Shown here: positions 31,249-57,066 of the stretch, piece after piece
Position numbering within the stretch: the stretch's first letter is position 1
Layout of the letters: each line of letters opens with the position of its first letter
Origin: Sclerodactyla briareus
Taxonomy: Eukaryota > Echinodermata > Holothuroidea > Dendrochirotida > Sclerodactylidae
Direction of reading: 5' to 3'
Length of the DNA stretch: 64,000 nucleotides
Assembly: GCA_026419785.1 (NCBI GenBank)
Contig: JAODTK010003443.1
Span: forward strand, 62,001 to 126,000
The notes under the pieces: generated by a model
What the model was told of the DNA's origin: nothing
The model's database searches: none
What the model saw: the letters and a program-made list of their open reading frames with translations, nothing else
Translations under genes and position numbers: made by a program

Positions 31249-31403
31249 CTACGGGCCATCAAGCTCATCTTTGTGAGAGGATATCAACATGAGGGACTTG
31301 TCTCGCTTGGGCTTGTACTTGAGAAGCTTGGCATAGTTCTTGAGCAGCTGAACCAGTAGCATTGGACCTCCGAGCCTCAGGGATCCAGATGAAGTCCCTA
31401 CCT
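31249..31403 (-). CDS. POGLUT1: POGLUT1 last exon with KDEL tail
   Basis: The acceptor is TTTCTTTTCAG. The opening frame gives GRDFIW, matching ERGSQFIRN. VQCYWF is read in another frame, and [18 protein letters not shown] then [12 protein letters not shown] in a third. This parallels the family ending DITCYWENLLSEYSKFLSY...KTEL. KDEL is the ER-retrieval signal; human POGLUT1 has KTEL. The open frame continues DGP before TAG, but one more T after GAGCTT would put TGA directly after KDEL. A GTAAGT sits right after the stop and is probably coincidental. Confidence 0.88.

Positions 31404-57066: not shown

Follow-up and report, generated by a model that had tools for sequence, protein, structure and literature searches.

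A predicted POGLUT1/Rumi gene of at least nine short, frame-broken exons on the minus strand of a Sclerodactyla briareus contig

Results

The window analysed here is a stretch of 64,000 nucleotides from Sclerodactyla briareus (assembly GCA_026419785.1, contig JAODTK010003443.1, positions 62,001 to 126,000; part of contig C2257 in our numbering), and the genome searched comprised 319 Mb in 3171 contigs. Comparison with known proteins confirms that a predicted POGLUT1/Rumi protein O-glucosyltransferase gene lies on the minus strand between 57066 and 31249, with at least nine short exons following one another in order over ~26 kb. Both this identity and the span had been proposed in a preliminary description made from the letters, and they are borne out by PF05686, PDB and tblastn searches; as that description gave no exon coordinates, we do not claim that its nine exons correspond to ours one by one.

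In the available text of PMC7803782, the features of POGLUT1/Rumi include a WXGG motif, the DXD-like DME and ERD, Asp133, Arg218 (within ERD), Arg279 and a KDEL-like signal. The first exon found (56977–57066; acceptor TTTCAG, donor GTATGT) encodes a stretch of 27 residues and was detected with human POGLUT1 (tblastn E=2e-4). The spliced alignment breaks its frame once, close to the 3' end, and also places one break in the following exon (55387–55528; acceptor TTGCAG, donor GTAATC), where stretches of 15 and 10 residues and the word EKCMFPAR match fly Rumi with E=1.85e-4 and human POGLUT1 with E=0.05. The third exon (52046–52181; CSGVEHFIL, DMEF, RD; tblastn E=0.002; acceptor CTTAG, donor GTATGC) is 136 bases long, i.e. 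one base plus 45 codons, the same length as the human stretch: the DME motif is readable as LLDMEF, compensating indels probably affect the 3' half, and a candidate for the catalytic Asp133 (GAC codon 52102–52100) is displaced by one codon from the expected register, within a stretch where such indels are presumed. A tblastn piece at 50056–49994 (11 residues, E=0.11) was rejected as an exon because exon 52181–52046 already supplies the 45 codons of this part of the human protein and the next exon begins at the following residue. This next exon (49541–49664; acceptor TTTCAG, donor GTAGTG) is readable across three frames as a 13-residue stretch containing WXGG as WEGG, GPAVWPI and a further 15 residues (joined tblastn pieces, E=1.3e-11), with the spliced alignment placing its acceptor five bases further in.

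A probable, weakly supported exon covering the PW..EKK..GSR region (44997–45053; acceptor TTTCAG, no GT donor) was placed by the spliced alignment (first part) together with reading of the sequence and was not detected by tblastn. It is followed by the exon at 43917–44015 (acceptor CTCCAG, donor GTAAGT), which tblastn matched in two frames with E=0.019 and in which a 10-residue stretch and NQAWKS are found, with the ERD motif readable as SSERDPLI. The exon at 41157–41216 (18 residues; acceptor GTGCAG, donor GTAAGT) comes from the spliced alignment, was likewise not detected by tblastn and has an alternative AG five bases upstream of its acceptor. The best-matching exon in our searches (36704–36871; acceptor TTACAG, donor GTAGCT) encodes a 27-residue stretch followed by WLEFFYP, HYIP and LQDV (tblastn E=9e-14), and its ASFR carries, by residue counting, the equivalent of Arg279; ASFRFKHL and an 18-residue stretch are motif stretches that tblastn read from the window. 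The last exon (31249–31403; acceptor TTTCAG; tblastn pieces with fly Rumi, E=0.47) contains RGRDFIW, a 15-residue stretch and SHKDEL: the KDEL codons (31261–31272) are in frame with the exon and, in the frame as read, are followed by three codons and TAG, which would place this candidate signal near, rather than strictly at, the C-terminus.

The order of these exons was assessed with a purpose-written spliced alignment, allowing frameshifts and introns, of the region 30,000–60,000; the preliminary description had named protein-to-genome spliced alignment as one check on its ordered minus-strand exons. The minus strand scored 672, compared with 126 for the plus strand, 109 for the reversed sequence and 97.3–122.1 for six shuffles in 12-base blocks, i.e. 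more than five times the score of each of the eight controls, and the exons were placed in order. Searching with human POGLUT1 and fly Rumi by tblastn gave further ordered pieces on the same strand. Two pieces from the spliced alignment, 51445–51429 and 32594–32580, were dropped: laxer settings shifted the start of the first and replaced the second by others. After adjustment of the boundaries, all nine acceptors exhibit AG and seven of the eight internal donors GT (the exception being the exon ending at 44997), a count biased by boundaries that were set partly by eye; with this qualification, the earlier claim that most exons have proper splice signals stands. The largest gaps between exons are 4.5 kb (49540–45054) and 5.3 kb (36703–31404), in agreement with the introns of up to about 5 kb described before, with the latter gap spanning the position of one short 3' exon absent from the model. 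An ungapped scan for this exon between 36703 and 31405 gave a best minus-strand score of 20.5, below the best plus-strand score of 23.5, and none is claimed. The gene model is incomplete, lacking the 5' end and a short exon towards the 3' end.

A profile search of the genome with PF05686 (Glyco_transf_90/CAP10; two candidates scored), which corresponds to CAZy family GT90, returned a single match, at 36784–36885 on the minus strand, with 29.3 bits against a cut-off of 24. The matching peptide finds human POGLUT1 in the PDB with E=1.7e-13 and fly Rumi with E=1.1e-11, and a PDB search with the peptide of exon 36871–36704 gave no further chain at E<=1, POGLUT2 included, although this was present in the library. 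Fly Rumi as query gave two matches in the genome (three candidates scored), both at this locus. Thus no second POGLUT1 copy was found by the PF05686 and Rumi searches, which detect just one or two of the nine exons here. A second haplotype copy was sought with 1.4 kb around one exon: beyond the locus itself, the matches listed all fall in an intron repeat, with 40 of 1678 candidates scored. Rfam gave nothing in the window at gathering thresholds.

This intron repeat (48925–49389, 465 bases) is a dispersed element for which a first look at the genome gave 1678 candidates; among the 40 scored, the longer matches exhibit 77–86% identity. The introns had been described as packed with repeats, of which the dispersed repeat stands, but of the 25,817 bases covered by the gene, just 2053 have a match at another place in the window or in 40 kb of flanking sequence, none of them in an exon. 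Elsewhere, an element of ~400 bases occurs in two copies that are 72% alike (24426–24814 and 37004–37418), the second being intronic, a short way upstream of exon 36871–36704. A minisatellite at 27537–29587 comprises about 33 copies of a 63-base unit with 89% matches; the unit length is a multiple of three, and the array contains repetitive ORFs (e.g. 28792–29166, minus strand). At the end of the window (63428–64000), ~570 bases recur ~1.2 kb further along the contig (L024, 592–1160) with 78.5% identity.

Splicing of the nine exons does not give a continuous ORF: there are 15 frame breaks in 282 codons (penalty -9, with the 3' half of the third exon left out) and none of the nine exons is free of them, a feature absent from the preliminary description. 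The frameshift count depends on the penalty: a setting of -9 gives 16 in 331 codons and one of -6 gives 25 in 332. Odd residues occupy some conserved positions. In order to compare this density with that of other conserved genes, we used pieces of actin and HSC70 from the same genome: seven pieces on three other contigs (C2424, C2792 and C1260) contain 30 breaks in 1566 well-aligned codons, ranging from one in 253 to 10 in 241 (the latter in HSC70), some of which could reflect misalignment where introns begin or end. When the POGLUT1 exons are filtered in almost the same way, with a match to either human or fly accepted, they show eight breaks in 165 codons; less strict filters give 11 in 225 and 14 in 261. 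This density exceeds the control mean, and only the worst control pieces come near. Where human and fly agree, 130 of 167 columns are identical, which falls inside the 72–82% retained at such columns by a simulated pseudogene with 5–8 substitutions per indel; this simulation does not separate decay from assembly error.

The actin on C1260 carries five frame breaks, yet 312 of its 332 well-aligned residues are those of human beta-actin. Relative to another actin of the genome, 99 of 251 codons differ synonymously and 16 nonsynonymously. Such a pattern is the mark of a conserved gene, albeit in columns preselected for good alignment. Internal stops occur in six of 14 HSP70 matches and in two of 16 actin matches. 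Animals have eight CCT subunits plus HSP60 and many EF-Tu-like GTPases, so that many copies are expected; Cpn60/TCP1 and GTP_EFTU are barely detectable, with four matches in the genome (three with internal stops) and three matches (none with internal stops), respectively. These few matches and the internal stops fit an incomplete or error-laden assembly. Neither the window nor the 27 loci of the genome that we examined contain any N.

Discussion

The most probable explanation, to which we assign a probability of about 0.8, is that the locus is an ordinary metazoan POGLUT1/Rumi gene and that the small indels interrupting its frames are consensus errors in an insufficiently polished assembly without gaps. 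Long-read drafts are described as producing false frameshifts and stops in the available text of PMC12007338, and the present assembly presumably belongs to this kind. The gene would be transcribed from the minus strand, and splicing would join the at least nine exons found with a signal-peptide exon and one short 3' exon; the product would be an ER enzyme adding O-glucose to EGF repeats in Notch and proteins like it. The gene is not visible as a long ORF because its exons measure 57–168 bases, its introns reach several kb and small indels break the frames; since actin and HSC70 pieces are similarly broken, its concealment is most likely due in part to faults of the assembly. One exon (36871–36704) does lie beneath a longer antisense ORF (36574–36975, plus strand), as described before, and to this extent the gene is hidden under an unrelated ORF; this is no special property of the gene.

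It is also conceivable, though unlikely, that the locus is a decaying, intron-bearing POGLUT1 pseudogene whose breaks are real mutations, the working copy lying in an unassembled part of the genome or the enzyme having been lost. The 15 breaks in 282 codons with at least one per exon, the odd residues at some conserved sites and a break density higher than the control mean all speak for decay; against it, the motifs sought and 16 of 17 splice dinucleotides are preserved, intact stretches of 13 and 23 residues directly adjoin frame breaks, and similar breaks occur in actin and HSC70 of this genome. The lack of a second copy also argues against this, although searches that see one or two of nine exons could miss one. 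Should the breaks be real and the animal have no POGLUT1/Rumi at all, which we consider very improbable, Notch would lack O-glucose of the POGLUT1 type.

That the gene is a different, POGLUT2/3-like member of GT90 is hardly credible: the Pfam family is common to both, but the best exon matches POGLUT1 and Rumi in the PDB with no POGLUT2 chain at E<=1, and the WEGG is present. A chance series of family-like words without any gene is most improbable for the gene as a whole, for while single words (45053–44997, the last exon) are weak alone, the score of 672 against 97–126, one exon at E=1.7e-13, the right order and the AG/GT boundaries speak against it.

As an ordinary metazoan gene, the locus would be biologically what is expected of an animal. 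The conserved genes examined here look broken by indels, and accurate reads are therefore needed before pseudogenes, gene losses or unusually concealed genes are claimed from this assembly.

Compared with known enzymes, the gene shares the Pfam family PF05686 with POGLUT2 and POGLUT3, which in the available text of PMC7803782 are without WXGG and exhibit a filamin-like domain; the WEGG of the window gene sets it apart from them. It differs from human POGLUT1 (PDB ID: 5l0r) and Drosophila Rumi (PDB ID: 5f84) in having at least one frame break per exon found, three codons between KDEL and the stop, and one short exon that was not found. With both it has in common the order of the exons along the protein, the DME, WEGG, ERD and ASFR motifs and, with less certainty, a near-C-terminal KDEL: 182 of 331 aligned codons are identical to human POGLUT1 and 164 of 318 to the fly protein (two doubtful small exons included), where human and fly themselves agree at 195 of 318.
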